From Paraglaciecola sp. T6c (lineage in GTDB: Bacteria; Pseudomonadota; Gammaproteobacteria; Enterobacterales; Alteromonadaceae), in contig NC_008228.1 in NCBI RefSeq assembly GCF_000014225.1, forward strand, positions 4,898,001 to 4,962,000: 64,000 bases of DNA, given 5' to 3'. The position numbers and the translations under genes were made by a program. This document shows positions 453-39,650 of this stretch, piece by piece. Numbering within the stretch: the stretch's first letter is position 1; each line of letters begins with the position of its first letter. The notes under the pieces were generated by a model. That model was given only the letters and a program-made list of their open reading frames with translations. It made no database searches and had not been told where the DNA came from.

Positions 453-482
453 TTGCATCGTCCCTTAGCCAAGACGATGCAA
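453..482 (+). terminator. 10-bp hairpin between lysA and dapF
   Basis: TTGCATCGTC at 453-462 is perfectly repeated inverted as GACGATGCAA at 473-482, with a 10-base loop. It lies 53 bases after the lysA stop. No T tract follows, so it may be a Rho-assisted terminator, an RNA-stability hairpin or an attenuator before dapF rather than a classical intrinsic terminator. Confidence 0.45.
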
Positions 483-585
483 ACCCATAGTCAGCCGTGC
501 TTTGAAATGATATAACCATCATTATAGGTACTTGATACAAGGGCGATCGTCGTCTGATTAAGTGATTTTTACGTAAGTGGCAAAC

Positions 586-21597: not shown

Positions 21598-23205
21598 ATG
21601 ACAAAACCAATAAAAATAATTGACCTCTTTGCTGGGCCTGGCGGTCTTGGGGAAGGATTTTCTGCTTATAAAGAAAATGCATCTAACCCTTTCAAAATAG
21701 CCATTTCTATAGAAAAAGAAACAAGTGCTCATCGGACCTTAACGCTTCGCGCATTTTATCGACAGTTTGGTGACGACACTCCCGAAGAGTATTATCAGTT
21801 TCTACGCGGCGAGTTAGGAAAAAATCCTGAAGACCAACTCTACAAAATAGAACGTTTTGCAAAACAAGTTAGCGCCGCTCAAAAAGAAGCCAGATGCTTT
21901 ACCCTCGGTGAACACAATAAAGAAATTGATGTTGCTATCGCTGAAGCTATTGGCTCTGATGAGTGCATGCTTATAGGTGGCCCACCTTGTCAGGCATATT
22001 CACTAGTTGGTCGTGCCAGGAACCTTGGAATAAAAGACTACAAAGCCGAAGATGACCCTAGGAACTTTTTGTATCTTGAGTACTTAAAGGTAATAGCCAA
22101 GTATCAACCTTTAGTCTTTGTGATGGAAAACGTCAAAGGCCTTCTATCTGCAAAGATCAATGGAGAGTCTATTTTCGATAACATGCGAAAAGATCTGCAT
22201 AACCCCTGTAAAGCGACAAATACTGTGGTACAAAAAGGAAGATCTCGTCACAACTATCGTATTGTATCTCTAGTGTGCCCTTCTCCAGAAAATGGTGTTA
22301 AAGCAGGACACGATGAAGTTACAGCTGCAAAAAATTATATAATCAAAACTGAGGATTTCGGCATTCCACAGCGTAGACACCGCGTAATTTTGCTTGGTTT
22401 ACGAGAAGATATTGCCGATAAGTGGGACAACAGCCTAATTCTATCCCCGACTGCGACTCAAACGTCAACTCAAGACGTTCTTAACGATTTACCAAAACTA
22501 AGAAGTGGACTATCCAAAGGAATAAATAACGATGAAAGCTGGGTCGAAACACTTAAAAATTCAAAAGCAAAACTTTCAAAAACATTACAAGATTCGGGAC
22601 TTGAATCAATAGCCCAACATATAGTAACAACCATTGATAAATTAAATGTGCCCAAGCAAAAACAAGGTAATAACTTTGGCGTTAAGAAAACCAAAGGTTT
22701 ATCAATTAAAAATAATATAGCCTTAGAAAATTGGTACAAAGATACCAAGCTGGGCGATTATGTAGTCAATCACGAAACCCGCGGACATATCGAAAAAGAT
22801 CTTCACCGATATATGTTTTGCAGTACGTGGGCATTAGTAGCTAAGAAAAATAAATGGGGTAATCCATTCCCAAAATCTAAAGATTATCCTAACTTACTAA
22901 AACCTAACCATGAAAACTTTAGTAGTGGAAAGTTTGCAGACCGTTTCAGAGTTCAGCTATCCCACACTCCAGCCACCACAGTAACAAGCCATATTTCCAA
23001 AGATGGTCATTACTACATCCATTACGACCCAAGCCAGTGCAGAAGCTTTACAGTAAGAGAAGCGGCCCGCATTCAAACCTTCCCCGACAATTACTTCTTT
23101 GTTGGAAACAGGACTCAACAATATGTCCAGGTTGGGAATGCTGTGCCACCTTTTCTAGCCAATAAGATTGCTGATATTGTTTATACATATATTTATAAGC
23201 TATGA
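21598..23205 (+). CDS. drmMII: DNA cytosine-C5 methyltransferase of a DISARM-type system
   Basis: This 535-residue enzyme should transfer methyl from SAM to C5 of cytosine in a short DNA motif, marking host DNA as self. Motifs in order: I DLFAGPGGLGEGF, IV GGPPCQAYSLVGRAR with the catalytic Cys, VI MENVKGLL, VIII FGIPQRRHRVILLG, a long target-recognition region (about 280-445), IX REAARIQTFPDNYFF and X QVGNAVPPFLANKIA. Its position facing drmA/drmB suggests the DrmMII role of class 2 DISARM, where the enzyme modifies CCWGG; the specificity here cannot be read from the sequence. It has its own promoter region and no strong ribosome-binding site. The symbol is by analogy. Confidence 0.85.
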   Translation: MTKPIKIIDLFAGPGGLGEGFSAYKENASNPFKIAISIEKETSAHRTLTLRAFYRQFGDDTPEEYYQFLRGELGKNPEDQLYKIERFAKQVSAAQKEARCFTLGEHNKEIDVAIAEAIGSDECMLIGGPPCQAYSLVGRARNLGIKDYKAEDDPRNFLYLEYLKVIAKYQPLVFVMENVKGLLSAKINGESIFDNMRKDLHNPCKATNTVVQKGRSRHNYRIVSLVCPSPENGVKAGHDEVTAAKNYIIKTEDFGIPQRRHRVILLGLREDIADKWDNSLILSPTATQTSTQDVLNDLPKLRSGLSKGINNDESWVETLKNSKAKLSKTLQDSGLESIAQHIVTTIDKLNVPKQKQGNNFGVKKTKGLSIKNNIALENWYKDTKLGDYVVNHETRGHIEKDLHRYMFCSTWALVAKKNKWGNPFPKSKDYPNLLKPNHENFSSGKFADRFRVQLSHTPATTVTSHISKDGHYYIHYDPSQCRSFTVREAARIQTFPDNYFFVGNRTQQYVQVGNAVPPFLANKIADIVYTYIYKL

Positions 23206-23385
23206 AGTCATTCTAATTAAACTTTTGGAATCTTTGGTTTTCTATCTAATGTAAAACATGCACTTAAAACAAAAGTAGCTCAATACGGTATTTTTATTTC
23301 ACTACTTGTTTGAAGGGGAATATATAATTGTAATAAGTTTAAGAATATTAAATTTGGACGTGTAGCTTAGTTCACAATTTAATAT

Positions 23386-25176
23386 TTACAAAAGGCTATT
23401 CACGTACTCTTCCTGTACCCCCGTTTTTTCGATAACATACTCCTTCGCACTACCAATGGATACGGCCATCTGAGGATAGAGTTCAATAATTTCACCTTTG
23501 TATGCATCAACAATCCATTTAGGCACGGCAGGAGAAAGAAAAAGTTGAATCGGATAACCATCTACGTCAATAGTTCCCTTCGCCAGCTTTCTCACCATAG
23601 GCAAGTTGGCTCCCCCCCCAGTCAGAATAACCGGCAGTTTAGAATGTGTATTTTTCTGTCGAATTTTTGTTTTTATCCAAGAGGGATGAATAGATGATAA
23701 AACGTGAACAAAAGCTTTACGTAATTCTTGGGAAAAATTCTTTATCGATTTTTCTTGCATAAAATCGCTTAACTTTACTTGCCCAGTAAGACCTCCAAGT
23801 ATGGAGTAGGTGAGGATATTATCTCTGAACAACCTTTCTTTATAATCTCTTATATCAAGCCGAAGTGAGACTAATACCTCCTTATATTTTTCACTTGTGC
23901 GTGATATGCCTGCATCTTTCATTATATAGGCTAATAACGTTTTATCTAATTTATCACCGGCGACAGGAACTCCATATTCTGAACCTTTAACCTCAGTCGC
24001 AATAGTATGGTCTTTTTTAGCTTCAGCAAAAATTTCAAACATAGTAAAATCAGTAGTCCCCGCTCCTACATCTACAATCATGCAGACATTTCCTAAAGAC
24101 GATCCATTGATACCCAAACGGCTGCCCGCAACAGCTAGAGGCTCCTCCAAGAAGCATTCAATATATGGTGAATTCTTATTAATATTCAGTCTCATCCAGT
24201 CATACAAATACTTCACGTCTTGAATCCTGAAACCATTCTCCCATTCTTCGCGGAATGATTTACCGAGGACTTCACCTAAAGTGAAAAGTTTAGTAATTTC
24301 TTTTATCACCTTGATTCTATGATTGGGCTCGTAACATGGAAGACTTATACGCCGTTGAATTTCACTAATATTTACATCATGTCGGTCACTAGCCGCTTCT
24401 CGCACCAAATAAAGTAAGTAACCTAGGTAAAAGGTTAACAGTGCCGCTTTTGATACGTCTGTATCAGTTGGGTTATATATCTTTGATAAAGGTGAATCAT
24501 CTATTGTGACTCTATTTTCATCGATTAGAAATGATTTAATCGAATCGATTCGAGAGACCCCAAACCCAGCAGCCCTAGCGTCGAGGCTTTTTTCAACTGC
24601 AATGGGGCCAAAATAAAGACGGCCGTCTGGGTCAATAAATAACGAAGAATGAACCGGCATTTGCAGTGCGTCTTCTCCTGCATAGATGCCAAGAGGAAGA
24701 TCAAGGATATTTTCTTCACCATTCTCAACTTTAACCATACAGGCTTTGGAATAGGCAGTGCCAAAATCTAGACCGAGCTTAATATTAGGGAGAAAATTGT
24801 CTGGATAAAGTACATCAGTGTCTAAAAGTGCCTCAATTCCCTGCGATGACATCACTTGCTCGACCACGTCACCTGAATCAGATTCGCTTAAAATTGGAGC
24901 TTTACTCACTACATCATAAACGGTCTCAACTTCATTTGGCGGTTCAATCTGCCGTGCTAAGTCCACTTGTGCTTGCAGAAGTGGACTTAGCACGGTCTCG
25001 GTATGGGGGGACTTAACTTGTTGTGCGTCACCTATTAGCTGCCCTGCAAAGAGTAAAGCATCCCTTTCTTCTTCTGTTATCACTCCGGGTAATGAATACT
25101 GTCCTGAGAGCTCGTTTAACAGCAAGCGGTTAATTAAATTTTCAAACAGAATATTGTTCTTTTTGTTATCAGACAT
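23386..25176 (-). CDS. Hsp70/actin-fold ATPase of the defence island
   Basis: This 596-residue protein has an Hsp70/actin-type ATPase core behind a 120-residue N-terminal region without known motifs. Phosphate-1 is GLDFGTAYSKACMV (near 134), phosphate-2 is IVDVGAGTTDFTMF (near 365) and the adenosine motif is ILTGGGANLPMVRKL (near 520). There is no DnaK-style substrate-binding domain. It starts 21 bases after the unknown 474-residue gene and the two look like a pair. The codons for the adenosine motif contain a run of eight G (23612-23619 as C on the plus strand). Its role is unknown; an ATP-driven switch or assembly factor for the nuclease/helicase machinery is inference. Confidence 0.8.
   Translation of the reverse strand: MSDNKKNNILFENLINRLLLNELSGQYSLPGVITEEERDALLFAGQLIGDAQQVKSPHTETVLSPLLQAQVDLARQIEPPNEVETVYDVVSKAPILSESDSGDVVEQVMSSQGIEALLDTDVLYPDNFLPNIKLGLDFGTAYSKACMVKVENGEENILDLPLGIYAGEDALQMPVHSSLFIDPDGRLYFGPIAVEKSLDARAAGFGVSRIDSIKSFLIDENRVTIDDSPLSKIYNPTDTDVSKAALLTFYLGYLLYLVREAASDRHDVNISEIQRRISLPCYEPNHRIKVIKEITKLFTLGEVLGKSFREEWENGFRIQDVKYLYDWMRLNINKNSPYIECFLEEPLAVAGSRLGINGSSLGNVCMIVDVGAGTTDFTMFEIFAEAKKDHTIATEVKGSEYGVPVAGDKLDKTLLAYIMKDAGISRTSEKYKEVLVSLRLDIRDYKERLFRDNILTYSILGGLTGQVKLSDFMQEKSIKNFSQELRKAFVHVLSSIHPSWIKTKIRQKNTHSKLPVILTGGGANLPMVRKLAKGTIDVDGYPIQLFLSPAVPKWIVDAYKGEIIELYPQMAVSIGSAKEYVIEKTGVQEEYVNSLL
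23612..23619 (-). repeat. G8 homopolymer inside the Hsp70-like gene
   Basis: Eight C on the plus strand give eight G in the coding strand, within the codons of the adenosine-binding TGGG motif. A one-base slip would frameshift the last 75 residues or so. Confidence 0.9.
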
Positions 25177-25197
25177 TTCGTGTTCCTTGCGCTATAT

Positions 25198-26622
25198 CTA
25201 GACTGTTTTTACAATACCTTTCTTAATAACTTGGGTTTTACCGTTTACCACCATCAATACTGCTGGCCTGACGACCACACCATTTCGCTGGTCATCAGAG
25301 AAACCTTCGGCCACTTCAAAAAGTTTTCGGTCAACATCAACTTGTTGGCCAAGATTGCCAACTAGACTGATGAATTGTTTACTAGCAAGGCTATATACTA
25401 GTCCGCTAACTATTTTCCATTGATTCGAAACATCATTAATAACTGGAATCAAACTAGGATCGAAGAGTTCAAGATCATCCAATGAGCTGTTCAAAGCATT
25501 GAAGCTTGCTTTACCTTCATATACACGTAACAGTAAATCCCCAACGCCAGATAACTCACCTTTTTTACACACTTCAAGTTCAGCACTGATAGTCTTCTTT
25601 GTGGCTATTTTTTTCCCGCCAGCCTTCAACCATTCAATAATAGCGTCATCAAGAAGCCCAGACTCTGCAATTCGACGACAGTGATCAGCAAACTGCGATT
25701 CAGAACTAACGCTATTTTTGAGGCGCATTAACAATTCACCATCAGTAATATTTTGACGGGCCAAAATAAGCAGCGCCTCAGCAATAGTTTTACTCAACTT
25801 AAACATTACTTTTTCTTTAATACAGACTTCCCGCCATACAGCATCGTCACACCAAGTCCTGATTCGCTTCAAAGCACTGTAATGCTCATATTCAATTGCC
25901 AAGGAAAAACGTTGTCCCACCAGATCAAGTAATAATCCAATAACCTCAGGTACCAGATTTTTGCGTGAGTTAGCTTTAACTTGGTCACGTGAAAAGTGTG
26001 AAAAACAACTCCCAACGAAGTCATCAATAACTTTCCCAACGTTCAGGTTACAATCAAATTCATTTTGCTGACAAAGGGTACGTATAGATTTAAGAATTCG
26101 GAGAAGTAGCGCCACCACTTTTGACTCATTGAGCTCTTTCTCCTTCAAGAAAATCCGCCCAACTTTGCCTAACTCTGAAAGCATAGTTTCAAAGTTTTCA
26201 GCATGCTCAAATATTATGTAAAGAAAAACCAATCGTCCTTTTTCAACTGCTGGTTCAGCCCAAAAATTCTGCATGGCCCATGAGAAAATCCAGTCTGGTG
26301 ACAACCTTTTGATCATTAAAGCCGCGTAATACCTATCATCACCTTCTTTAAGTTGCTGTATGGCAGGAGCAGCAGGCGCTAGCTTGACTACTTCTGCAAT
26401 ATCAAAAACAGGCTTTTTAAGTGCAGCTTCTATGCGCCCTAATATAGCAATTACTTTTAATTTATCATCACCAAAGGCCAATTCAGACATGCGCGTAAAA
26501 AGTGCGTCAAAATCTTCAGGAAAAGACCATTTGAAAACTGACTTATCAATTAATGATTTAGTTATACCAGCGCTCAATGCCTCAATAGAGGTATAAGAAT
26601 GTAACTCATTTATCATATTCAT
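25198..26622 (-). CDS. Unknown helical protein paired with the Hsp70-like gene
   Basis: I do not recognise this 474-residue protein. It appears almost wholly alpha-helical and soluble, with no signal peptide, Walker motif or nuclease motif. The C-terminal part has two short stretches, FDPSLIPVI and VVVRPAVLMVV, that faintly recall the beta domain of GrpE nucleotide-exchange factors, but spacing differs and I would not assign it. It lies immediately upstream of the Hsp70-like gene (21-base gap) and 152 bases behind the NERD-helicase gene. By position it may be a cofactor or adaptor of the ATPase. Confidence 0.7.
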   Translation of the reverse strand: MNMINELHSYTSIEALSAGITKSLIDKSVFKWSFPEDFDALFTRMSELAFGDDKLKVIAILGRIEAALKKPVFDIAEVVKLAPAAPAIQQLKEGDDRYYAALMIKRLSPDWIFSWAMQNFWAEPAVEKGRLVFLYIIFEHAENFETMLSELGKVGRIFLKEKELNESKVVALLLRILKSIRTLCQQNEFDCNLNVGKVIDDFVGSCFSHFSRDQVKANSRKNLVPEVIGLLLDLVGQRFSLAIEYEHYSALKRIRTWCDDAVWREVCIKEKVMFKLSKTIAEALLILARQNITDGELLMRLKNSVSSESQFADHCRRIAESGLLDDAIIEWLKAGGKKIATKKTISAELEVCKKGELSGVGDLLLRVYEGKASFNALNSSLDDLELFDPSLIPVINDVSNQWKIVSGLVYSLASKQFISLVGNLGQQVDVDRKLFEVAEGFSDDQRNGVVVRPAVLMVVNGKTQVIKKGIVKTV

Positions 26623-26774
26623 AGCTTTAAAATCAATTTCATTTGCTCTACTAGTACAGCGGTGACTATAGGAGTAAAAATACTGCCTATTAGTGACCCA
26701 TTTAAGTTCTCAAAATAACAATTATCTGGATCATACTTTTTAGCCGTAATAATTCCCTATTAGTTTTTATTTAA

Positions 26775-28595
26775 CTAGGGATCAATTTCTTCTGTTAGTT
26801 GTTTTTGCACCTCTAACAGGCCTGCCTGCACACTATTTGAACAATCTTCAGGTAATAACCAAATTAACCGTGTCCTTGCTCTACTTCCACCCACATACAT
26901 CAGCTGGCGCATCTGCTCATCAGCCAGCTCTTCTACCCCGATTAGGATAACGGTGGAGGCTTCAAGGCCTTTGAAACCGTGAATTGTTTCCCAGACAATA
27001 TCCGTCTTGTTAGCGTCCCGGTATCTTTTCAAGGGGCGGTTCAGCATACCAGGTTCGAAGAGTATATCGGGGATCAGATCTTTGCGGGCGGTAAGGATGG
27101 CAATATCAAAGGGCGATTGATCCACTTTGGCGTATTCTCGCAGGGTATCGTTGATATAGCTGCGCAAAAGTTTGATAAAAGTTTTTTGATTAGAGAAATA
27201 ATCAATAACTGGCGCGGGGCCTTCGACTGTCATTACCTCACAGGAACCTGCCTTGCTGAAGCCATACACATGGATGGCAACAGGGCGCGTGTTACGGCAG
27301 TTTTCTACCAACTCTAATGTGGCTCGAGTGTAACGCTCCAACCTATCTAGCGCCTTCTCTTCAAAATTATTGGTATAGAGCGCCTGCGCCCTGTCCATGG
27401 CTACCAACCATTTTCCACCTTTGCGAGGCTCATCGGGTGGTGGAGTCAGCCCGTCTTTAAGTAGCAAATCTAAGACATCAAGAAAGGCTTCACTCATCAG
27501 ATCTTGGCCCTCATCCATAATGATGCGGTCGAACAACGCGGCATCACCGAGGCTATCTATCGCTTCTGCTACTAGATCAAAACAGCGTTGATTAAAATCA
27601 CCCCAGTCACTGGAGAAGGTAGTGGTTAAGCCTGCCTGATTACGCAAGCCTTTAACCAACTGGTGGTAGTTATCGATGGTCACTGTTGCCATCTCAGGAA
27701 ACTGAGCGGCCTTGCTCTGTAACAGGCGGGCCAGATTAACGTTGTAACAAACCAGAAGCACCTTCTCACCTTTTACAGCACACTCTTTGGCGAACTCAAA
27801 GGCCAGTAGCGTTTTGCCGGTGCCGGCTGCTCCTTCAATAATGGCGCGCGGGGTGGATTTGCTCCTAGTGGCGATCAGTAACTGGCACTGTTTTTCTGTG
27901 AGCCTAATTAAGCTCTGTTCTGCCTCACGTGTCGCTTGGCCAAGGCCTGTGTAGCACTCGACGCGGGGGCGCAGTAGCTCTTTCAATTCATCACGGGTAG
28001 TGGGCGGCAAGCCGTTTTGCATCTGACGACCATTGCGCAACCTGGGGAACTTTTTGCGGTTGTTATCTTCACGCCAGTATTCGACTAAGGAGTTTGTCCA
28101 ATCGACCAGCCCTTCAGGAAAGTGTTTCTGATCAAGCAGCATCTCATGGTCGATTTCCGGGTCATCTTCAGGTAGCTCGGGTATACAATGTGGCATTATC
28201 ACACCCCATCCCCAGGGCAGGCGCTCGGTAAGCTCTTTATGGCCTGCTTTCTTCAGGTACCTTTCGATGGCAAAGTAGGCGTCCATGGTCTGCTTGAATG
28301 GGCTTTCGTTTTTTTCCCGATCGGGCTTTCCTCGTTTTTCTTGCACCCATTTTCCGGCTTTATTTCGGTAGTTCTTGCCCCCTTTTACTTCAATCACCAG
28401 TACACCTTGATCAGTGATTACCACAAAATCCGCTTCGCCTGACTTTTTGAATTCGTGGTTTTTTAACCGAAGGGAATGCAACACCAACCAGTCATCAGGC
28501 GTATGTTTTTTTAGCTGAGTAAAAACTTCCTGTTCGCCATACGGCACTCGCTCATCACCGGCTTCTCCAGGTGTTGGGGGAATCATCTGCGCCAT
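26775..28595 (-). CDS. NERD-domain nuclease fused to SF1 (UvrD-like) helicase
   Basis: This 606-residue protein combines a nuclease-related domain with a DNA helicase. The NERD core is at about 35-80: ADFVVITDQGVLVIEVKGG has the D-(x)n-E-x-K pattern of PD-(D/E)xK nucleases. The helicase follows with Walker A EGAAGTGKTLLAFEF (near 255), Walker B IIMDEGQDL (near 360), motif V HGFKGLEASTVILIG and motif VI YVGGSRARTRLIW. The ATG overlaps the drmB stop by one base (TAATG), so it is coupled to drmB. Similar fusions occur in phage-defence loci; here it may replace the nuclease function of the missing DrmC. Confidence 0.85.
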   Translation of the reverse strand: MAQMIPPTPGEAGDERVPYGEQEVFTQLKKHTPDDWLVLHSLRLKNHEFKKSGEADFVVITDQGVLVIEVKGGKNYRNKAGKWVQEKRGKPDREKNESPFKQTMDAYFAIERYLKKAGHKELTERLPWGWGVIMPHCIPELPEDDPEIDHEMLLDQKHFPEGLVDWTNSLVEYWREDNNRKKFPRLRNGRQMQNGLPPTTRDELKELLRPRVECYTGLGQATREAEQSLIRLTEKQCQLLIATRSKSTPRAIIEGAAGTGKTLLAFEFAKECAVKGEKVLLVCYNVNLARLLQSKAAQFPEMATVTIDNYHQLVKGLRNQAGLTTTFSSDWGDFNQRCFDLVAEAIDSLGDAALFDRIIMDEGQDLMSEAFLDVLDLLLKDGLTPPPDEPRKGGKWLVAMDRAQALYTNNFEEKALDRLERYTRATLELVENCRNTRPVAIHVYGFSKAGSCEVMTVEGPAPVIDYFSNQKTFIKLLRSYINDTLREYAKVDQSPFDIAILTARKDLIPDILFEPGMLNRPLKRYRDANKTDIVWETIHGFKGLEASTVILIGVEELADEQMRQLMYVGGSRARTRLIWLLPEDCSNSVQAGLLEVQKQLTEEIDP

Positions 28596-30535
28596 TAATG
28601 ATTATCTCCGTGAAGGTAGTCATGAAAGAAACCGATCTCTGGGTTATCGGGTGTACCGACCAGCAAAGCTCTATCGAGTAACAGGTTACGTTGCTCACAA
28701 CTGGTTTCTGACACTAGAGAACAGGCATGGCAGGCGGCCAAGTTAAGCGCATCAACGCCTTGCCCTGCACTTTCAATACACAGGGGATCAGAGGAACACC
28801 AGCGGGCATTTTCTAATGATGAGGCCATCATCTTGTCGAGATTCTCAGGCTCACCCTGGCGTACGAGGCCACCCAAAGTACCGTCCGCGCTGCCCGAAGC
28901 GGTATACAATAATACGCCGCACCACTGCTCACCTTCACTGCGGCCATAGAACAGACGCTCACGTATCGATGCACTGGAATAACCGCATTCCAGTGAGAGC
29001 TGTTTGATTAACAGATGAGATAAGGTGTGGATCATTAGGTAGCCGGGGGCTACTAAGTCCATATCAATGTCTTCGATTCCACGGTCTTCACAGTAGCGTA
29101 GATAGTTGGCAACCAACGGGGCGATATGAGTTAGTACCGCTTCGTCAGTTTCCCACTCTGCCAAGCGATCTTTGGAGAGCTCAAAGTAAATACCTTCACC
29201 GCGGGTTTCTATAGCCGGGAGCCAGTCTTCAGGGAATTTTGATAAGGGCGCACAGGCTTGACTGTAACTGTCGGCAACAGGTGAGCTCTCTATTCGCTGG
29301 AACCCTCGAAGGGCGCGAACCTCTCTAAGGCGATGCACTTTGGCGAGAAGTTCCAGATAGTCCTTCAGTAAATGTGCTTTCTGTAAGTCGTAGTCCTCGA
29401 CAACTTTATTTTCAAAATCATCCTCTAACTGGTCTTCATCGGAGTCATGAGTGAGCGCCTGCCTCTCACGGTCTTTCTGCTGGGCTTCGGTCAGCTTCTG
29501 ACCACCTGCCGCTGCATTTTCTAGCAGGATATCCATTGCCATGCCAATCTGGTCACGTTCATAACGGCGAAAACCAGGAATGCCGTTTTGGAACAGATTG
29601 ATGTACATCTCTCGATCAATGGCTTTACCGTCGGCATGATCCTGCTTGAGGGAATTAAGAATAGGCCTTCCCCTAACAACGATTTCCTGTATCAATTTTG
29701 ATGATAGCGGCGGTATGGAAATGGCCGATGCCGAAACAGGGAAATAGATGTTGGATGCACCTCGAAGCAATGTCCGCACAGGCCTTTCGCAAGGCTCACA
29801 TGTCCCATCATCATTTCTAGAGCCCAACCACGGGCGATAGCCTTTACAGCTCCACGCAATGGCATCTTTATTGAATACGCCCTCTAGGCTCCGTGAAGCG
29901 CCACAGTCTTTCGCTTTGCATTGAACCACCAAACCTGAAATGCCAGCTTTCTTGCCCTTTGCCTCCAAATAGATTTCGGGGCTCTTGCATGTTGTTTCTC
30001 CTGACTGTGAATGAGCCCACCAAGTCCAAGGAAAATCATCAATATGCCCGGGTGAATTACCACTGGCATCCCCATCTCCCGGGTGACACGCGACTACCAA
30101 CCTAGTTGGCACGCCATAACCATTACAGTCATTAGCACTACACTTGGGAGGCGCGTCGATTTCTTCATCGAAGCGAATGTTGACGTGACCTAAGCGGTGG
30201 CATTCATTGCATTCCAACCATTCAGGAAAACGGTAAGCCGGCACGGGCACAGGGTTATCATCGTCTTCGGCAGAGGGAGGCATCAGAAATCGATCAACAC
30301 CTAACGATGCCGCTAGGGTGGGTTCGGAGACTTCCTGCATTTCATCCACTGGCCAAAGGTGTGTACCAGCCACAATGACCGAATTGGCGATAGCGCCGCC
30401 TTTAAAGGTACGTAATTCATAGAGAGAACCCGGCCCATAGGTCGTAACCGTCTGGCTGCGACTAACCTTGCCAATCGGGCCCTTTTTCATTCCGCGGTTA
30501 GTCCCACCCTTTTTTCCAAATCTTGGTTTAGCCAT
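28595..30535 (-). CDS. drmB: DrmB, DUF1998-domain DISARM protein
   Basis: DrmB is one of the two core DISARM proteins and partners with DrmA; in the known complex it occludes or recruits DNA at the helicase. The basic N-terminus (FGKKGGTNRGMKKGPIGK) and TYGPGSLYEL are typical. A zinc-ribbon-like group (CNECHRLGH, later CSANDC) lies near 115-150 and another near 205-265. The C-terminal DUF1998 domain shows the cysteine cluster in CIESAGQGVDALNLAACHAC and SETSCEQRNLLLDRALL. Length is 646 aa. It starts two bases after the drmA stop and overlaps the NERD-helicase gene by one base, so the three form one coupled unit. Confidence 0.88.
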   Translation of the reverse strand: MAKPRFGKKGGTNRGMKKGPIGKVSRSQTVTTYGPGSLYELRTFKGGAIANSVIVAGTHLWPVDEMQEVSEPTLAASLGVDRFLMPPSAEDDDNPVPVPAYRFPEWLECNECHRLGHVNIRFDEEIDAPPKCSANDCNGYGVPTRLVVACHPGDGDASGNSPGHIDDFPWTWWAHSQSGETTCKSPEIYLEAKGKKAGISGLVVQCKAKDCGASRSLEGVFNKDAIAWSCKGYRPWLGSRNDDGTCEPCERPVRTLLRGASNIYFPVSASAISIPPLSSKLIQEIVVRGRPILNSLKQDHADGKAIDREMYINLFQNGIPGFRRYERDQIGMAMDILLENAAAGGQKLTEAQQKDRERQALTHDSDEDQLEDDFENKVVEDYDLQKAHLLKDYLELLAKVHRLREVRALRGFQRIESSPVADSYSQACAPLSKFPEDWLPAIETRGEGIYFELSKDRLAEWETDEAVLTHIAPLVANYLRYCEDRGIEDIDMDLVAPGYLMIHTLSHLLIKQLSLECGYSSASIRERLFYGRSEGEQWCGVLLYTASGSADGTLGGLVRQGEPENLDKMMASSLENARWCSSDPLCIESAGQGVDALNLAACHACSLVSETSCEQRNLLLDRALLVGTPDNPEIGFFHDYLHGDNH

Positions 30536-30537
30536 AA

Positions 30538-33500
30538 TTATTTTTTGTATATCAGTTCAACGTTAGTGGGCGGTTCAACATCGCGCATGGATGTTGGTGT
30601 TTTGATGCGGCCATCATCGGTATACTCGTCTGGACTTTTGAGTAACTCGTACTTATCCAGATCTTCTCGTTTTTTGCGTAGCTCTTTTTTACGTTTCCAT
30701 GGTAGCTGCCAGTAGACATTATCCTGGCCACCGTCACGAACTCCTTCGGCAAACTCGACCCAGTATTTAATTAATTCTTCCAGATAATCGCGAGTACTAT
30801 CCTGTTCTGCGCTATCAACAATACCTGCTCGCTCAGTGATGTAATCTGCCAGCTCTTCAACTTGCTGCCTGATCCCTTGCTTGAGGATATTGCCTGCAGA
30901 AATATCTTGGCGTAGTTCATCGATCGACTGGCGCACCATCGCAAAAAGCACTGCGTGAAGCGCCCGGTCTCTGGCGCGAGAAGCATAAGGTGTAACACTT
31001 GTGGATTCGACATGACGGTAGAACGCCAGATGAAAGGCTTTGAAACGCTCGTAGTGGGAGCGATCTCTCGGCCGGGTCCAGTTATACATAGCGAAGACGA
31101 TACCTGCACTGTCGGGCTCTCGACCTACCCGGCTGGATGCCTGAATGTACTCAGCAGTATTTTTTGGCTGGCCGTTCACAATCATAGCGTTGAGTCGACC
31201 GACATCGACACCCACTGAAATCATATTGGTCGAGAGCACAACATCCACTGCAGGGTTATCGTCATCTTCATCTTTACCCACATTAAGCTGGTCAAGAATT
31301 TCCCCAAGCTGCTGCTGATTGAGCTGGCTGGTAAGCTCTCTTTTTTGAGGGAGCTCTCTTACTTTTTGTCCTTTAGATAAAGGGATTGAATCCAGATAAC
31401 GGGGTACGTCATCCTCGAGTAGTACGAGTGCACCACCTAATTCACGCAAGCTGTTAAAATACATCACCAAGGAATAGAAAGGGTCTTTGCAGTCATCGTC
31501 GAGATACATATTTGCCTGAGATATATTACCTGCAAGGCGCGAAAGCGAATGTTTGGGTGAGCGCCCCTGACAGTGAAGCCCAACGTATAATCGGTCCTGG
31601 GTGTCATCCACCTGATAGAAAAACGAATCACTCGCGCTGATACCACTGGGCGGAAACTGGGCGAGCTTTCTGTTGAACAGTTTTCTTACATGCTCTTCAG
31701 CTCGCCTAATCGTAGCGGTTGAACCAACAATTTTTACCCGTCCCTCTTCCGTCTGCGTCAGGTAATCTATTGCGCCCTCGTAAAGGGACGTTACAGTACC
31801 AAGCGCATCGGAGATCAGATGTAGCTCATCCTGAATAATCAGATCGGGCCTGCGTGCACCATCGCCAAAGAGCACTTTCATATCGGGCACCCATGACATC
31901 ATGGCAAATTTATCCACGGTGCCAATAACGATTGATGGCGGATGTTCGTAAATTTGCTCATCAACAATCAAAATCGGCAGCCCAGAATTAAAATCACAAT
32001 CGCTATTTGAACAGGGAGTTATCAGCTCCTTCGTACCCTCGCTGATAGTTTGCTGATGCATATGCAGATCGCTCTTACACCAAGGGCACTTCTGAATCGG
32101 TAGCGTGGTGCACTGATCATCATCACCCTCACCATCAATAATTTCAGCAGCGCGCTTTAAGTAGTTGGGGGTTGCGGCACCACCAACAAACAGGCCGATG
32201 GTAAACGCTTTTTGTATTTCAAATTCAGGGTGCTGCCCACTTTTCACATGCTGCGCACTGACAACATTGGCGGCACAAATCATGGTAGCGGCACGCTCAA
32301 ATTGTTGAATGGTCAACAAGCGAAGTGTGTAACGGGTAAGTACCGCGGTACCGGCTGCTTCCGCTGGCGTTGCTGCGGTCAAACGACGATAGAAAAGTAA
32401 CATAGCCGAAAGACCGAGATATGCCTCGGTTTTACCACCACCGGTTGGGAACCAAATGAGATCCAACACATCACGCTCTTCGTGGCCGCGCTCCATCGTT
32501 GAAGGCAATGACAGCAGCACAAAGGCCAGCTGAAAAATACGCCAACGCGGCTCTTTATCAGGCCGGGACTGCCGCATACTGGCTGCGATGGTTTCGTTAG
32601 CTAGGCAGAAGGCCTGCCAAGCATTACTATTTTTCTCGTCAGCAAGATAGTCGATCCCTACATCAATACGTTTGAACTGGTCCCGACAAATTTGAATATT
32701 CTTTCCGGCTACATTAATGACCCTCGCTTTGTCCCTACCAAAGCCTTTAGTGACAACAGGTATTTCATCTTCACGATCATTTATCCACTGACCGTAAACG
32801 TCAGTAAGATTTCTTAGCTTTTTAATAATTCCAGCTTTGTTGTTTTGCTTTGAAAGCACATCCAGATTAAGAAATTCTGTGTCATTAAATAAAGGCTTAT
32901 TGTTACTGTCACTAAAATCAACTGGTAAGTCAGCCGAGGCCTTGGTGACCTTTTGACGGGGTATCCAGATACTTTTAACTTCACTGACAGTGTCAGTGTC
33001 TTCGTCCCACTGAGCTGAACAGCCATGACCTACGGCATACTGCTTGGCATTGTGATAGAGCAGCTCATAGAGCCAAAACTCATCATCATCAACTTTGTTA
33101 CCGGTGTTGACGCGCCCCTTAAACGGCACGCTGTCCTGCGCGCTGAGCTTAACTTCTGGCTGGTAGATAATTCGGCTGTAACGGTTTTCAGGGATGTAAT
33201 CACGATTATTGATTAATACTATCGTTAGGATTATGGCCTCATCTGTTTCTCGTAGTATTTTACGAACCTCTATTCCGTTATTGCTGTAGATGGTCTCTTT
33301 ACCATTCGGGGATGCTGCGATGACATTAATCTCACAGCTTTGCCGGTAACCCTTTCGTTGCCAAGCATTCGGGCCATGTTGCTGTCGTTCTTTTTTCCAA
33401 TTGTAAATTGATTTACGTTCTGCATGACAATTGCAAAAACCAATATATTCACCCCAGGTAAAATCGAGACCAACTGTCTGATCAACTTTTTCGAGCTGGG

Positions 33501-33753
33501 TTGAAATACCCATGGCGCTCTGCTGAGCGCAGTTAGCCATATTGAGGATACCTTCGGCTGCATCGTCGGCCATGCCGGTGGCGTTGTCCTGATCATCTTC
33601 GTCTGGGTCGATCATTTCACCCACAGGCCATAGCATTGCAGTGTGATAGAAATCCCAAGGGTTATCTTCGATGACTTCATCATCAGTACCGGGTCCGACG
33701 AAATAGCGATCCACTTCTTCGAGAATTCTTTCTCTCGCTTCCTGATTATTCAT
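30538..33753 (-). CDS. drmA: DrmA, SF2 helicase of DISARM
   Basis: DrmA is the large DISARM helicase that translocates on DNA with DrmB. In this 1071-residue protein I see Walker A WFPTGGGKTEAYLGL (near 434), the DExH box IIQDELHLI (near 646), motif III GSTATIRRAEEH, a zinc-binding cluster (CPWC ... CSNSDC, near 555-590), and motifs V-VI TNMISVGVDVGRLNAM and EYIQASSRVGRE (near 848-875). The acidic N-terminal region (DPDEDDQDNATGMADDAAEG) is also typical. The gene begins six bases after the UvrD-like gene and ends two bases before drmB. Confidence 0.9.
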   Translation of the reverse strand: MNNQEARERILEEVDRYFVGPGTDDEVIEDNPWDFYHTAMLWPVGEMIDPDEDDQDNATGMADDAAEGILNMANCAQQSAMGISTQLEKVDQTVGLDFTWGEYIGFCNCHAERKSIYNWKKERQQHGPNAWQRKGYRQSCEINVIAASPNGKETIYSNNGIEVRKILRETDEAIILTIVLINNRDYIPENRYSRIIYQPEVKLSAQDSVPFKGRVNTGNKVDDDEFWLYELLYHNAKQYAVGHGCSAQWDEDTDTVSEVKSIWIPRQKVTKASADLPVDFSDSNNKPLFNDTEFLNLDVLSKQNNKAGIIKKLRNLTDVYGQWINDREDEIPVVTKGFGRDKARVINVAGKNIQICRDQFKRIDVGIDYLADEKNSNAWQAFCLANETIAASMRQSRPDKEPRWRIFQLAFVLLSLPSTMERGHEERDVLDLIWFPTGGGKTEAYLGLSAMLLFYRRLTAATPAEAAGTAVLTRYTLRLLTIQQFERAATMICAANVVSAQHVKSGQHPEFEIQKAFTIGLFVGGAATPNYLKRAAEIIDGEGDDDQCTTLPIQKCPWCKSDLHMHQQTISEGTKELITPCSNSDCDFNSGLPILIVDEQIYEHPPSIVIGTVDKFAMMSWVPDMKVLFGDGARRPDLIIQDELHLISDALGTVTSLYEGAIDYLTQTEEGRVKIVGSTATIRRAEEHVRKLFNRKLAQFPPSGISASDSFFYQVDDTQDRLYVGLHCQGRSPKHSLSRLAGNISQANMYLDDDCKDPFYSLVMYFNSLRELGGALVLLEDDVPRYLDSIPLSKGQKVRELPQKRELTSQLNQQQLGEILDQLNVGKDEDDDNPAVDVVLSTNMISVGVDVGRLNAMIVNGQPKNTAEYIQASSRVGREPDSAGIVFAMYNWTRPRDRSHYERFKAFHLAFYRHVESTSVTPYASRARDRALHAVLFAMVRQSIDELRQDISAGNILKQGIRQQVEELADYITERAGIVDSAEQDSTRDYLEELIKYWVEFAEGVRDGGQDNVYWQLPWKRKKELRKKREDLDKYELLKSPDEYTDDGRIKTPTSMRDVEPPTNVELIYKK

Positions 33754-33759
33754 TAAACG

Positions 33760-36105
33760 TTATTCTCCTGTTGCTCTTGAGAGTGGGAAAAAACCTTGTA
33801 TTAATGGGAACACCATGACGCCGGCTGGGCCAATGTGTCTAGCGAGGATGGGTGATTGAATTGGGTGGACGATGGTTTGGTAATTCAGGCCCCCCCCCAA
33901 ATTCATCATCGCACCACCATCTCCGTAGGCAGCAACCCACTGGTCGTTTTCTTTTTTAAGTGACATTGCATTTAAATCTTTCTGGAGAGGTCCGCTAACG
34001 GCGCAAATTTTAACTGATTTATTGCCTGTAAGCATAAAAAGACAATAATTATGGTCTAGCTCTTTATTACGACTCACGGCCCTAATAATAAACCTGTGAT
34101 TTTCTTTATAGCAAGATAAGTAGTTCACAAGCGCTTCTTGATCGACGCTTCCATTTTCCAAGATAAATAGCGCTTCCAAATTAAAGTCTTCCACACCTAA
34201 TATTTGATTAAACTTCGTGCCATTCTGCGAGTAACGATAATGACCACCCCACCCCCTTTTCATATAACCACCGAAAGGCACCTGTTTTTTTGGAAGTAGA
34301 GATATACTCTTCTTAGCTCGAGTTATTGCCACATAAAGCACGCGCACTTCTTCGTCCGTAATATTGTTCTGACTTGGCTGGATAGCCACTACATTTTTAT
34401 ATTCGAGGCCTTTGGCTTTATGAACTGTTGAAACGATTAATCCTTTTTCGGACGAATCACCTTTTATTGCAGGGGAAAGATATTTTAGGCGAAAGGCCAA
34501 CTCGTCAAGGTTAATAACGTTATGCCTCACTAAACGTTCGTTGTTTAGAAAATTATCGAGCTCACTTTCAGAGGGAATTGTGCTTGCCGAAACGTTAGAA
34601 TGGACACGACTTATAAAATTTTGATAGGTAATTACCTCTTGCTGGTAGTGCATGACCGCTTCACCGATCCATGCCGGCCATGGCCGCCCAATTGCTCCAG
34701 CATTAACGGTGCAAGAATTGCCCTGCTCCTGGTGCCAGTTTAGCCACCGGAAAACCTCGCCATTAGAACGGCAGAGTAAGGCATCAACTGACTCGCTATT
34801 GAATTTTTCAATCAACTGTTCCTGTGAAATATCAGGAATTAGCTTCACTAAAGCAGAAAATTTATCCTCGGCTGTTATCCCTAAATTATCAAGGATCAAT
34901 TTTGCGTCAGCGGCCAGTTGTTTCATTTCTGATGTTTCGTAGCGGTGTGATTCTTTTAGCTCAAATTGCTCTAATCCACCACTGAGATGGTCCTGTACTT
35001 TTTGTAGGAACTCTGCAGAATCTGTTTGGTTTTCCTTGATTTGGTAATCGTTCAGGGACTGGTGAGGATCCCCTAACAAAGTAACGGAGCCTTTACGAGC
35101 GAGAATTCGCTTAACCAACTCAAAAACCATATCGGCACGTACGCCAACCAGATCTTGTATTTCATCAACAAATAAATAACGGGAACGGCCAATACGGTCC
35201 GTTACTTGGCTTAACTCTACTGTCTCAAGTTTTTCAGTAAGCAGCTGAATCCTTGCATCATAGGTTTGTCCAGCAATGTCATAGCCACCATCATTTAACA
35301 ACCAAGTAGCGTAAGCATCAAAGGTTTTTACCTGCACATACCGCAGACTGCTTGGCGCGCCATCCTTAATTGCTTTAGATATACGCTCCCGAACTTCTCC
35401 AACTGCTGCACGGGTAAAGCTCAACACCAGTAGTTCCCCAGCATCCACCTCTCGGTAGGATTTGGTGATGGCGTAAACCAGCCTTTCAATTAATGTGTGG
35501 GTTTTTCCTGTTCCCGGAGGCGCTAGGACAAGAAAACTTCTATCAAGCCTTGCCTCGATAACGGCCTGCTGCGGGGGTTTATCTTGCTCTTTGAAATCGG
35601 CTACAGGTAAGCGACCAACAGATACTTCATCAGGTCTTACATCCTCTAGATCGGCGTCCGGATCCCTTGTGTTATCGACATAGTCGGCCTTTATAGACCA
35701 TCTGTTATCTTCACCTTTTGTAAAAACATCCTGATAACTGTGAAGGGTCCTAGTCACCAATTGACGGGGTTCATTTAATGATCCTGATAACGATCTGGGT
35801 TTTTGATTAGGTGTTTTTTTTAACTCATCTTTAATCCTTTCAACCAAGTCTATATTTTCAACAACTATCGTTACACTTACGTTTTTTTTTGCAGGATAGT
35901 CATCCAAAAATTTACTTGTCGTATCAGATTGTTCCTTTTCTATCACCCCCCATTGATTATCAGAATTCTTGTGAAAAATGTTGGTTCTAGAATGGAGAAT
36001 TGAATTTATCTTTCCTCGATTTTCATTCAAATCTGAAGCAAGCATCCTAGCTTTCACCCATGGATTTGACGCAAGATAAGCAGCAACCTTATCTAAAAGG
36101 GACAT
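33760..36105 (-). CDS. UvrD/Rep-family helicase with duplicated N-terminal DNA-binding-like modules
   Basis: This 781-residue SF1 helicase has Walker A APPGTGKTHTLIERL (near 197), Walker B FVDEIQDL (near 312), a GDPHQSLNDYQ motif III, motif V HKAKGLEYKNVVAIQ and motif VI VAITRAKKSI. The first 130 residues hold two similar modules, each ending in a F-H/T-K-x-x-D-N-x-W pattern (FHKNSDNQWGV near 50 and FTKGEDNRWSI near 130), probably winged-helix folds (inference). A G9 run lies at about residue 736; a slip there would change the last 45 residues or so. drmA follows after six bases. It is not DrmD (SNF2) and not DrmC, so it appears specific to this variant. Confidence 0.85.
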   Translation of the reverse strand: MSLLDKVAAYLASNPWVKARMLASDLNENRGKINSILHSRTNIFHKNSDNQWGVIEKEQSDTTSKFLDDYPAKKNVSVTIVVENIDLVERIKDELKKTPNQKPRSLSGSLNEPRQLVTRTLHSYQDVFTKGEDNRWSIKADYVDNTRDPDADLEDVRPDEVSVGRLPVADFKEQDKPPQQAVIEARLDRSFLVLAPPGTGKTHTLIERLVYAITKSYREVDAGELLVLSFTRAAVGEVRERISKAIKDGAPSSLRYVQVKTFDAYATWLLNDGGYDIAGQTYDARIQLLTEKLETVELSQVTDRIGRSRYLFVDEIQDLVGVRADMVFELVKRILARKGSVTLLGDPHQSLNDYQIKENQTDSAEFLQKVQDHLSGGLEQFELKESHRYETSEMKQLAADAKLILDNLGITAEDKFSALVKLIPDISQEQLIEKFNSESVDALLCRSNGEVFRWLNWHQEQGNSCTVNAGAIGRPWPAWIGEAVMHYQQEVITYQNFISRVHSNVSASTIPSESELDNFLNNERLVRHNVINLDELAFRLKYLSPAIKGDSSEKGLIVSTVHKAKGLEYKNVVAIQPSQNNITDEEVRVLYVAITRAKKSISLLPKKQVPFGGYMKRGWGGHYRYSQNGTKFNQILGVEDFNLEALFILENGSVDQEALVNYLSCYKENHRFIIRAVSRNKELDHNYCLFMLTGNKSVKICAVSGPLQKDLNAMSLKKENDQWVAAYGDGGAMMNLGGGLNYQTIVHPIQSPILARHIGPAGVMVFPLIQGFFPLSRATGE
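33890..33898 (-). repeat. G9 homopolymer inside the UvrD-like gene
   Basis: Nine C on the plus strand give G9 in the coding strand, encoding part of NLGGGLNYQ near the C-terminus. Tracts of this length are prone to slippage. Confidence 0.92.
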
Positions 36106-36466
36106 GAGAGTCTGCTGAGACAGCTTCGTTGAAATATAGAAATCAGACGAGGAATTGAGTCACCATACTTTAGTGACAATTCCTTTATCCGATAAAACGC
36201 AAGGTATACTAACTCCAAATCACTTGCCATAAATATTCATATCCATTGAACGTAAATCATTGTTTTTAATATTTTTATACAAATGAGATTACTATTTTTA
36301 CCAATAAAAGCAAAGTAGTTATTTTTTACCATTGTTTCTTCTCGTGAGCGTAATTTAACAGTGCATTCATATTAAATAAGCGCATAGCAACTAAAAGCCC
36401 ACGGTCGGCAAAACCGAAGTATTCAGGCGTATATTTAATCAAATTCACTAATTTCTTAATTTTCCC
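36106..36466. other. 361-base gap upstream of the helicase operon
   Basis: Strongly A/T rich with no ORF. It must hold the promoter of the 36105-to-23386 operon (minus strand). I see no operator with confidence and no terminator for the methyltransferase/HNH gene beyond a short AT-rich tail. Confidence 0.45.
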
Positions 36467-38227
36467 CTACCACTCACGCAATTGCTGCATATCTTTTAAG
36501 CGGCCTCTTTGTAGCAGTAGGGCTTCAAATAAATCATCGATAGAATCGTTTTGTGCACTGAGCCCGGGCAATGCGATATTGGCTTCGGCGAAAAAGCGCT
36601 GTTTTTGGTTAGAATCGTTTTCGTTTAACCACGCTGATGCCCACCAGTGTTGCATGCGCTCTTTGGCGGCACTGAGTGTTTTTTCCGAGGGTAATTTGTC
36701 GCGCTTGTTATTATTAACCTTGCTGTCGCTGGGCACTAGGTTCCATAAATCGTTATTTGGCCAGCGTGAAAAAGGCATGCTGTGATCAATGTCATATTTT
36801 CGTTTCAAGGTTTTCGCTGACCATACACATTGCATTTGTTGGGTGCTGGCAAGGGCGTCGAAGCGTTGGCGAACGTCTGTGGTTGATCGTACTGGCTCTT
36901 CCCATTTCAAAGCTTGGTAAAGTAAGTGTTGCTTGTCTGACGAACTGAAGTCTTGGTTGCCTTGGTAGCCGGCCATGGTTTTTACCCATTCACTGACTAA
37001 AACTGGCTCTATCCAGCAGGCATATCGGCTAAGTGCCAACCACGTGGTTTCAGGTAATGAGAACTCTCCCCACTTAGATAAAGAATCTAAATCTAAGAAC
37101 AAACTGTCTTTTGCTCTAACGGTTTTTGCGGCGACTTCAAACACCCGAGTATCACTGTTGGGTAGGGTAATGTACTTACCGGGCATGTCTCTTATATTTT
37201 GCGTACTGGCCGAAAGTGCTCGGTATAACGCTTTTGCGTCAGCACCGATAAAAACGTTACCAATACGAAAATCGGCGGCGGCTCTGTGAGTCAGTTGCCT
37301 CCAGCCGTTGTCTTTTATAAACCCCATATTGGGGCTTTTATTCGGTGTTTGGAATAACCCGTAGTGATCGATTAAATCTTTGTATTGGTGTATCCAATAC
37401 AAAGCCACCAAGCCCAATGGCAGTATGACTCTGTCACCGTTTGTAGAAGGTTCTCGCCTTAGTACCGCGCCTGCATGACCATCGGCAATTCTTAATAAGA
37501 CTCTTAACAATGCCAGTTTGTGCGTGGCAGATTTACCGTCATTAATGGCCACATGACGGATAAACGGAAAGGCACCTGTGCCATCGTCTGGCATTTGCAA
37601 TACAAGGGTTTGCCAGTAAACACCTTCACGACCGAGTTGGTCTTTTTTGTTCTGCGATTCGAGCTTTGAAAACAAGCCTAGGCTTTGTGCGAGTGCCTCT
37701 ACCTCTTCTACGCTGACGTCGAACATTTTCCTTTCATGCTGCTCTTCGGCTGTCATACCAAATTTCAGCGATATCACTATTTTACCGCCGGGTTTAAGCA
37801 AATTGGCTAGTTTTCGTAGTGAGCGACTTCGTTGAGTAACGGGAATGTGCATCCAAACGGCGCTGAGTAAAATGAGGTCAAAGCTAATTTCTAAACGTGT
37901 GGTTTTATCTAATGCGGGTAATGCGTCTTGCAGCCAATGAACATTTTGCCCTTGGGTTGTGATTTGCCCTTCTTGCAGCATTTTTAATGCGGGCTCTACA
38001 GCATAAACACGGCACTGATTATCACTTTGGTTTTTTTCAGCGAGCAAATTGGCGATATGACTCACGTCTCGGCCTACGCCTGCGCCAACATCAAGAATAG
38101 TCGAATGGGGTTTATCTAAAATAGCGGGTAAGTAGTGCGCCCAACTGTTATGCACTTGGTCAAACGACAACGACAAATATTGAGGCGCGATTTCTTGAAC
38201 TTTATCGTTGTAATAATCGTTAGACAC
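36467..38227 (-). CDS. SAM methyltransferase fused to a C-terminal HNH nuclease domain
   Basis: This 586-residue protein starts with a class I SAM methyltransferase domain (about 1-210). Its SAM loop is ILDVGAGVGRDVSHIANLL, seen as DVGAGVGRD, with a later SLKFGMTAEE strand. The N-terminal domain resembles small-molecule/protein methyltransferases, not a DNA base methylase: no DPPY/NPPF motif is visible. A middle region (210-470) has no motif I know. The C-terminal region (about 475-515) has the HNH-like pattern KYDIDHSMPFSRWPNNDLWN then VPSDSKVNNNKRDKLPS. It lies 361 bases upstream of the helicase operon in the same direction; membership in the defence system is likely but not certain. Confidence 0.72.
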   Translation of the reverse strand: MSNDYYNDKVQEIAPQYLSLSFDQVHNSWAHYLPAILDKPHSTILDVGAGVGRDVSHIANLLAEKNQSDNQCRVYAVEPALKMLQEGQITTQGQNVHWLQDALPALDKTTRLEISFDLILLSAVWMHIPVTQRSRSLRKLANLLKPGGKIVISLKFGMTAEEQHERKMFDVSVEEVEALAQSLGLFSKLESQNKKDQLGREGVYWQTLVLQMPDDGTGAFPFIRHVAINDGKSATHKLALLRVLLRIADGHAGAVLRREPSTNGDRVILPLGLVALYWIHQYKDLIDHYGLFQTPNKSPNMGFIKDNGWRQLTHRAAADFRIGNVFIGADAKALYRALSASTQNIRDMPGKYITLPNSDTRVFEVAAKTVRAKDSLFLDLDSLSKWGEFSLPETTWLALSRYACWIEPVLVSEWVKTMAGYQGNQDFSSSDKQHLLYQALKWEEPVRSTTDVRQRFDALASTQQMQCVWSAKTLKRKYDIDHSMPFSRWPNNDLWNLVPSDSKVNNNKRDKLPSEKTLSAAKERMQHWWASAWLNENDSNQKQRFFAEANIALPGLSAQNDSIDDLFEALLLQRGRLKDMQQLREW

Positions 38228-39601: not shown

Positions 39602-39650
39602 TGAGCTCAGGCTAGCAACACAGCTGAGTACTTAGCGAAATCGACTTTCA

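Follow-up and report, generated by a model that had tools for sequence, protein, structure and literature searches.

PADLOC divides DISARM defence systems into type I, comprising DrmA, DrmB, DrmC, DrmD and DrmMI, and type II, comprising DrmA, DrmB, DrmC, DrmE and DrmMII (PMC9252829). DrmAB takes single-stranded DNA with a 5' overhang as substrate and has a methylation-sensitive ATPase, while DrmC is dispensable and often missing (PMC9142583), which leaves the way in which DISARM destroys DNA unclear. ARMADA, BRIGADE and TALON are related systems in which YprA-family helicases occur with different partners (PMC12458937). Here we analyse a DISARM-related island of Paraglaciecola sp. T6c, whose genome is a single contig of 5,187,005 bases. 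The island lies in a stretch of 64,000 nucleotides (NC_008228.1, positions 4,898,001 to 4,962,000; hereafter the window, whose numbering is used throughout) and was delimited in a sequence-only reading as eight long open reading frames (ORFs) from 21598 to 38227 with a non-canonical gene set.

We arrive at a modified picture, to which we give a probability of about 55%: a two-module cassette at a genus hotspot, in which a DISARM variant would be joined by an accessory Hsp70/exchange-factor pair that regulates restriction complexes. The picture draws on directly observed gene content, intact motifs, recurrence of the first module, portability of the second and cassette borders, and on folds taken from models only.

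A DISARM core with other partners

All eight ORFs were found where the sequence-only reading had placed them, and PADLOC and Pfam confirmed its DrmA, DrmB and C5 methyltransferase. PADLOC was run on ten proteins from 21598 to 40412, its output giving the best 25 of 57 families for the methyltransferase and the best 25 of 62 for the UvrD-like protein. Seven of the genes form the cassette (SF1 and SF2, helicase superfamilies 1 and 2):

21598 to 23205, plus strand: DrmMII-type C5-cytosine methyltransferase, 535 residues (PADLOC DrmMII 1.6e-94; PF00145 9.2e-47; PCQ and ENV motifs)
23386 to 25176, minus strand: PDC-M61B, predicted ATPase with an Hsp70 nucleotide-binding domain, 596 residues (PADLOC 1.6e-137; phosphate and adenosine motifs intact)
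25198 to 26622, minus strand: PDC-M61A, 474 residues (PADLOC 1.2e-44)
26775 to 28595, minus strand: NERD-nuclease/SF1-helicase fusion, 606 residues (Pfam NERD 3.2e-17; PADLOC RTasNERD-Hel 1.4e-42)
28595 to 30535, minus strand: DrmB, 646 residues (PADLOC 2.8e-81; NCBIfam DrmB_fam 3.6e-139; PDB 7s9v_B 3.8e-84)
30538 to 33753, minus strand: DrmA, SF2 (YprA-family) helicase, 1071 residues (PADLOC 9.5e-206; PDB 7s9v_A 8.8e-132)
33760 to 36105, minus strand: UvrD-like SF1 helicase, 781 residues (Pfam UvrD-helicase 9.1e-23; PADLOC RTasHel/GajB-type helicase 6.7e-29)

The DISARM core is thus present as adjacent, separate genes for the SF2 helicase DrmA, which contains an FPTGGGKT motif, and the DUF1998-type protein DrmB, and both proteins match the same solved DrmAB entry, 7s9v. 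The DrmMII-type gene lies inside the cassette on the opposite strand and is probably the cognate methyltransferase of DrmAB. Pfam families across the island were NERD, UvrD, MZB, DEAD/Helicase_C, methyltransferase and HNH_4. The methyltransferase, M61B, the NERD domain (GEAD...EVKGG) and both SF1 helicases (GTGKT and DEGQD in the NERD-helicase) all have their catalytic motifs intact. The duplicated N-terminal modules that had been noticed in the UvrD-like helicase are borne out: a module of about 50 residues occurs at residues ~5-54 and again at ~89-138, with an alignment score of 87 versus 25.5 +/- 4.5 (maximum 43) in 500 shuffles. Equally, the tight spacing described for the four central genes, -1 to 6 bases, was recovered as gaps of 6 bp (UvrD-DrmA), 2 bp (DrmA-DrmB) and -1 bp (DrmB-NERD); the NERD and M61A genes are 152 bp apart, and 361 bp separate the UvrD-like gene from the methyltransferase/HNH gene beyond it.

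The sequence-only reading had found no DrmC, DrmD or DrmE, and had named drmC in the window as the gene that would speak against it. DrmC was neither among the PADLOC matches listed for the ten proteins nor detected on window ORFs with a profile of four DrmC sequences; a single whole-genome query also gave no match, a weak negative for a query with no positive control. Small custom profiles run on window ORFs of at least 50 residues found neither DrmD nor DrmMI, and DrmD was also not among the PADLOC matches listed. DrmE was likewise not among the PADLOC matches listed; because those of the UvrD-like protein are the best 25 of 62 families, a weak DrmE match of this protein could be hidden. We considered whether the UvrD-like protein is itself DrmE. 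BLASTP found no similarity between it and the 801-residue protein that precedes DrmA in locus L049 (L and G denote loci and genomes in our survey); this protein has no PADLOC or NCBIfam match and is therefore unusable as a DrmE reference. The sole BrxH match listed among the ten proteins is weak (0.0028) and comes from DrmA itself. Judged by gene content, the island is neither DISARM type I nor type II by the PADLOC definitions, being without at least the DrmC of type II.

The UvrD-DrmA-DrmB-NERD order recurs

We labelled 31 DrmAB loci: the window, nine loci from phylum genomes, 20 plasmid records and L066; the profiles used were built from some of them. The phylum sample comprised 398 genomes, 13 of which had a match, the own genome included. 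The plasmid records were opened from 64 that matched, by ranked similarity to the window DrmB plus taxonomic spread (the 44 unopened include H4 and H7, whose listings equal those of H3 and H6). Excluded before counting were L039, on a 3.4-kb contig, and weak DrmB matches in G396 and G605.

UvrD-DrmA-DrmB-NERD-helicase was found in the same order on one strand in 6 of the 31 loci, which belong to unrelated hosts, a fraction that is no prevalence because the plasmids were picked by DrmB similarity ranking and taxonomic spread. The six are the window, Azospirillum L046, L054 in G627, Rhizobium L132 and L133, and Shinella L134. Here L134 carries the full order though absent from the profile seeds, and the L132 DrmB was taken from annotation, as automatic gene picking had missed it. 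The remaining arrangements are varied. In Tsukamurella L050, UvrD-DrmA-DrmB is present and the NERD gene is absent; a short SF1 helicase follows DrmB in six loci, one of which (L142) also has a NERD-like gene before DrmA; NERD-like or NERD-helicase genes stand ahead of DrmA in L055, L058 and L139 as well; drmC is present in seven, recognised from annotation in L140 and L143; and the other eight match no arrangement listed here. In the stretches read, drmC and the UvrD/NERD set occurred together in none of the 31 loci. The first 138 codons at L066 weakly resemble SF1 helicases, and a UvrD search in the genome of that locus gave one weak match, on another contig.

In a DrmA tree of 31 rows, the DrmC type formed one clade (100/98) and the type with a short SF1 helicase another (100/99). 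The window DrmA groups with other UvrD-type DrmAs at 87/86, and this group sits in a 99/99 clade with the DrmC types, outside which fall the short-SF1 and NERD-first types. The UvrD label needs three changes on the tree, because L050 has no firm placement and the group includes L047, which a transposon has cut. From the conserved order we read UvrD-DrmA-DrmB-NERD as a real, recurrent DISARM variant, defined by gene order and with no claim to monophyly, which upholds the earlier idea that the unit is related to DISARM and departs from its canonical gene sets.

Two other explanations bear on this module. The UvrD-like and NERD-helicase genes might form a separate SF1-helicase/nuclease defence system that is operonic with DrmAB by chance. 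Like helicases do occur elsewhere (GajB, RTasHel, NERD-Hel), and the two genes are found apart, as in L050 and in the four loci with a NERD-like gene before DrmA. We nevertheless think this improbable, given that the order with DrmAB in the middle recurs in six loci, that the gaps are -1 to 6 bp and that DrmA phylogeny partly tracks neighbour type. Still harder to credit is a decayed class 2 DISARM that is minus drmC and drmE and has bystander genes added: plasmids of Alphaproteobacteria carry the same set of replacement genes, the ORFs are intact, and the window DrmA stands apart from L049 and the NERD-first types, even though DrmMII is part of the type II definition (PMC9252829) and DrmC is reportedly expendable (PMC9142583).

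A further DrmAB variant was seen along the way, with the order DrmA-DrmB-short SF1 helicase-478..495-residue protein, in L048, L056 and L135, of which two are on Photobacterium plasmids and one is in a genome from the same order; in L048 and L056 PADLOC gave no match for the last protein. The 483-residue protein that follows DrmB in the Photobacterium locus L048 was considered as a relative of M61A and rejected, as BLASTP showed no similarity.

PDC-M61 is a portable gene pair

The Hsp70-like and 474-residue proteins match, at nearly full length, the PADLOC candidate pair PDC-M61; in the window M61A is followed directly by M61B after 21 bp. A scan of contigs from GTDB species with an alignment of two M61B sequences, with partners called by BLAST at 1e-6, gave 67 M61B loci, of which 49 have both genes, 17 an M61B-like gene only and one neither. 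The 49 are a lower bound, because L107 and L108 were counted without M61A yet have an M61A-cluster protein directly upstream. All 17 M61B-like-only loci are from Alphaproteobacteria, and 14 of the 17 proteins have 449-489 residues. The M61B-like proteins of L109, L110, L112, L113, L115-L122, L126, L128 and L130, for which no M61A was found at 1e-6, are mostly ~460 residues long, come from Hyphomonadaceae and other Alphaproteobacteria and possibly represent a separate Hsp70-like family.

In 48 of the 49 loci with both genes, M61A immediately precedes M61B and shares its strand; the gap between them has a median of 17.5 bp and ranges from -143 to 53. The exception is L103, where the two are divergent. 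Neighbouring systems, assigned by similarity to PADLOC-labelled references or window genes, could be named for 29 of the 49. Hma was most frequent (10/49), with the pair between labelled HmaB and HmaC in nine of the ten; in the remaining one, L098, HmaB went uncalled since an antisense ORF occupied its place. Type I restriction-modification (RM) followed with 7/49, five of them with a labelled RtcR-like CARF gene (L114 has HsdR only, L127 a weak HsdM plus HsdR only). A PLD-SNF2 gene with type III RM was seen in four (L125 shows a short Mod piece only) and BREX in another four (PglZ and BrxL in L067, L070 and L072, BrxL only in L129), L070 and L072 sharing an identical M61B that is counted twice. 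DruE of Druantia neighbours two pairs, DrmMI one, and DrmAB one (L066). An extra M61 copy lies near BrxC in G1062. The PADLOC paper of 2021 (PMC8565338) defines Hma, and drmA does not occur in the part of it available; a BREX survey treats Hma as DUF499-centred BREX-related systems, and in the accessible main text the words Hsp70, DnaK and chaperone occur zero times (PMC12839542).

On an M61B tree, which left out the incomplete L129, neighbour labels need 19 changes versus a shuffled mean of 27.5; therefore neighbours are clustered but have been swapped repeatedly. Sister M61Bs accompany different systems in L069 (DruE) and L114 (type I RM; support 93) and in L066 (DrmAB) and L105 (DrmMI; 99), a milder contrast since DrmMI is a DISARM-type methyltransferase. 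The window M61B stands alone on a long branch, with an end-branch length of 1.89 and 33% as its best identity. The PDC-M61B profile matched 61 of 369 class genomes, all but the own genome at no more than 33.8 bits versus 457.7, and we read these weak matches as other Hsp70-type proteins; M61A had matches in 2 of 394 order genomes. Nothing useful came from searching plasmids with either protein, from E. coli genomes or from three scans of viral contigs.

PDC-M61 is therefore rejected as a DISARM-specific pair: with DrmAB beside only L066 among the 49 other pair loci, its two genes are portable among defence systems and are not DISARM genes. Of the accessory genes proposed as parts of a distinct subtype, the UvrD-like and NERD genes do recur with drmAB; the Hsp70-like and 474-residue genes are mostly found elsewhere.

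Some loci have a distinctive layout. In L071, L078, L080, L097 and L106 a conserved operon reads RtcR-like CARF regulator-HsdR-HsdM-HsdS-M61A-M61B-Ari/OLD-like ATPase-290-300-residue protein. In L076, L085 and L125, M61A has 720-721 residues, with an N-terminal extension, and directly follows the PLD-SNF2 gene; in L076 and L085 this long M61A precedes type III Mod/Res genes.

Predicted folds of the pair

The M61B profile matches Hsp70/BiP at 1.5e-7, the match stopping at profile position 518 of 590, and its structural model matches the DnaK nucleotide-binding domain (NBD) at 2.3e-16. M61B carries an N-terminal extension of ~130 residues, and no substrate-binding domain (SBD) is recognisable in a model that ends soon after the NBD. 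M61A is predicted to form a helical HEAT/ARM-like solenoid to about residue 342, followed by a GrpE-like part (342-474) that matches GrpE on model comparison. At the sequence level this similarity is marginal (profile score 25.0 versus at most 17.9 in 60 column shuffles), and GrpE was not among the best 50 Foldseek matches listed for M61A. Pfam shows no conspicuous toxin-like or nuclease domain in M61A or M61B, weak matches being scattered over 32 families. On these models the pair may consist of an Hsp70 and an exchange factor dedicated to it.

The folds weigh differently on two other views of PDC-M61. It may be an independent, stand-alone defence or guard, such as an abortive-infection or host-shutoff sensor, that acts as a backup to restriction systems. 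In keeping with this, the pair neighbours many unrelated systems, 20 of the 49 loci have no assigned system, PADLOC lists it as a candidate of its own, and 152 bp separate it from the NERD gene. Its place between HmaB and HmaC speaks more for an integrated part, neither protein has a conspicuous toxin-like or nuclease domain in Pfam, and the predicted folds are those of an ATPase and a scaffold or exchange factor; on balance we regard a stand-alone role as doubtful. Slightly less probable again, in our judgement, is that M61B is a peptide-remodelling chaperone that folds large defence proteins and is not a regulator. The predicted Hsp70 NBD with intact ATP motifs and the GrpE-like partner would suit such a role, whereas the Hsp70 match ends before any recognisable C-terminal SBD, and most defence loci seem to manage without M61, since M61 is rare in the genomes scanned.

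A probable genus hotspot for whole cassettes

The borders of the island were set by blastn against congeners. Against G1097, conservation on the left, over 71 bp at 87%, ends at 21525, and on the right it begins at 36122, which places the cassette at ~21526-36121, tight around its seven genes; G1087, a sister species, keeps the left flank as far as 21267 and the right flank from 36465. The features are:

~21526 to 36121, no strand assigned: inserted defence cassette, whole
36467 to 38227, minus strand: resident S-adenosylmethionine (SAM)-methyltransferase/HNH fusion beside the cassette (Pfam matches include HNH_4; 89-92% identity in congeners)

The methyltransferase/HNH gene had been counted as a member of the island. 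We reject it as a DISARM component: it lies outside the cassette and is resident in four congeners (G1087, G1091, G1093 and G1097) at 89-92% identity. PADLOC gives it methyltransferase- and HNH-type matches. One of its matches is Cas9-like HNH, and the gene marks one edge of the hotspot described here.

The homologous site in congeners lies between the methyltransferase/HNH gene and a MAPEG gene. G1087 has ~11.1 kb there, with a C5 methyltransferase, a PDC-M26A match (8.7e-32) and a weak PDC-M26B match (1.6e-7); the ~6.4 kb of G1091 encode a type IIG restriction enzyme (1.5e-195) together with a type IV-like protein (2.2e-42); and the ~14.0 kb of G1097 encode a C5 methyltransferase, a protein whose C-terminus is DndH-like (4.1e-65) and matchless proteins. 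In G1093 no cassette gene was called in the 1.8 kb past the methyltransferase/HNH gene, where the contig ends. Because G1087, G1091 and G1097 carry other genes at the same place, we read the site as a probable hotspot that swaps whole cassettes, with mostly restriction-type cargo in these three, and the HNH fusion as a mere neighbour.

Promoter- and terminator-like sites in the window were not more frequent than in shuffles. Elsewhere in the window, at 40883-47914, a unit of two genes (396-401 and 142-143 residues, overlapping by 13 bp) is present in four copies arranged in tandem; the repeat blocks are reported as 62-75% alike and are retained in G1087, and the first copy has no match in PADLOC, Pfam or NCBIfam.

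A possible mode of action

For the two-module cassette we infer the biochemical steps, the split of labour between the helicases and the role of M61. DrmMII would label host DNA. DrmA-DrmB would load on incoming unmarked DNA at 5' single-stranded ends and then translocate, while the UvrD-like helicase might widen unwinding that starts at ends or nicks. The NERD-helicase, sited downstream of DrmB where DrmC usually stands, would be the nuclease. The M61A solenoid and the N-terminal extension of M61B may dock on many different restriction complexes, and the M61 ATP cycle would assemble, release or gate them, most likely limiting self-damage or resetting stalled complexes.

A bolder version of this scheme, which we hold only tentatively, makes M61A/M61B a dedicated Hsp70-GrpE-like, ATP-driven controller that plugs into Hma, type I and III RM, BREX, Druantia and DISARM, and that here serves a third DISARM class in which a NERD helicase-nuclease replaces DrmC. 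A DISARM variant that recurs with a NERD helicase-nuclease where DrmC would stand allows the question of the effector to be tested within a single operon. Separately, a small gene pair common to at least six kinds of restriction system, its proteins predicted to fold as an Hsp70 motor and a possible exchange factor, suggests a common control layer above restriction. In the literature searched, without subscription papers and most preprints, we found no description of such a layer, no function for PDC-M61 and no description or name of a UvrD-DrmAB-NERD DISARM. Whether the island was already named, a question raised at the outset, is thus answered for the Hsp70/474-residue pair, which is PDC-M61 in PADLOC, and no name was found for the UvrD-DrmAB-NERD variant.

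Comparison with known systems

Several described systems share parts with the cassette. ARMADA type II likewise has a YprA-family helicase and a GajB/UvrD-like helicase in one operon; in the window DrmA and DrmB are split, and the ARMADA partners, as given in the available text, are not among the matches listed (PMC12458937). TALON resembles it in combining a YprA-family helicase with a NERD nuclease; the TPR-CSD and TBP genes and the RNase H-fused YprA protein described there have no counterpart among the Pfam matches of the ten window proteins (PMC12458937).

The second module is a divergent member of PDC-M61 (PADLOC-DB 2.0.0). A described analogue is CnuD of CoCoNuT, an Hsp70-like domain found in restriction superoperons, also by RtcR-like CARF genes and type I RM (PMC11090510). 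The CnuD homologues comprise Hsp70 NBD/SBD, in some types fused to McrB or McrC homologues, and have degenerate Walker A-like motifs (PMC11090510), whereas M61B is an NBD-type protein in its own right, its motifs are intact and it adjoins a GrpE-like partner. DnaK-GrpE offers a parallel in the predicted Hsp70 NBD and GrpE-like folds of adjacent genes; it differs in that M61B has no recognisable SBD, M61A bears a solenoid and the sequence similarity to GrpE is marginal.

Among the DISARM types, the likeness to type II (class 2) lies in DrmA, DrmB and the DrmMII-type C5 methyltransferase within the cassette. Type II requires DrmC and DrmE (PMC9252829); DrmC was not found in the window and DrmE was not among the PADLOC matches listed, and the UvrD-like and NERD-helicase genes stand there instead. 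The DrmC, DrmD and DrmMI of type I (class 1) were not found in the window either; what it shares with that type are DrmA and DrmB, and its DrmA falls in the 99/99 clade with the DrmC-type DrmAs.

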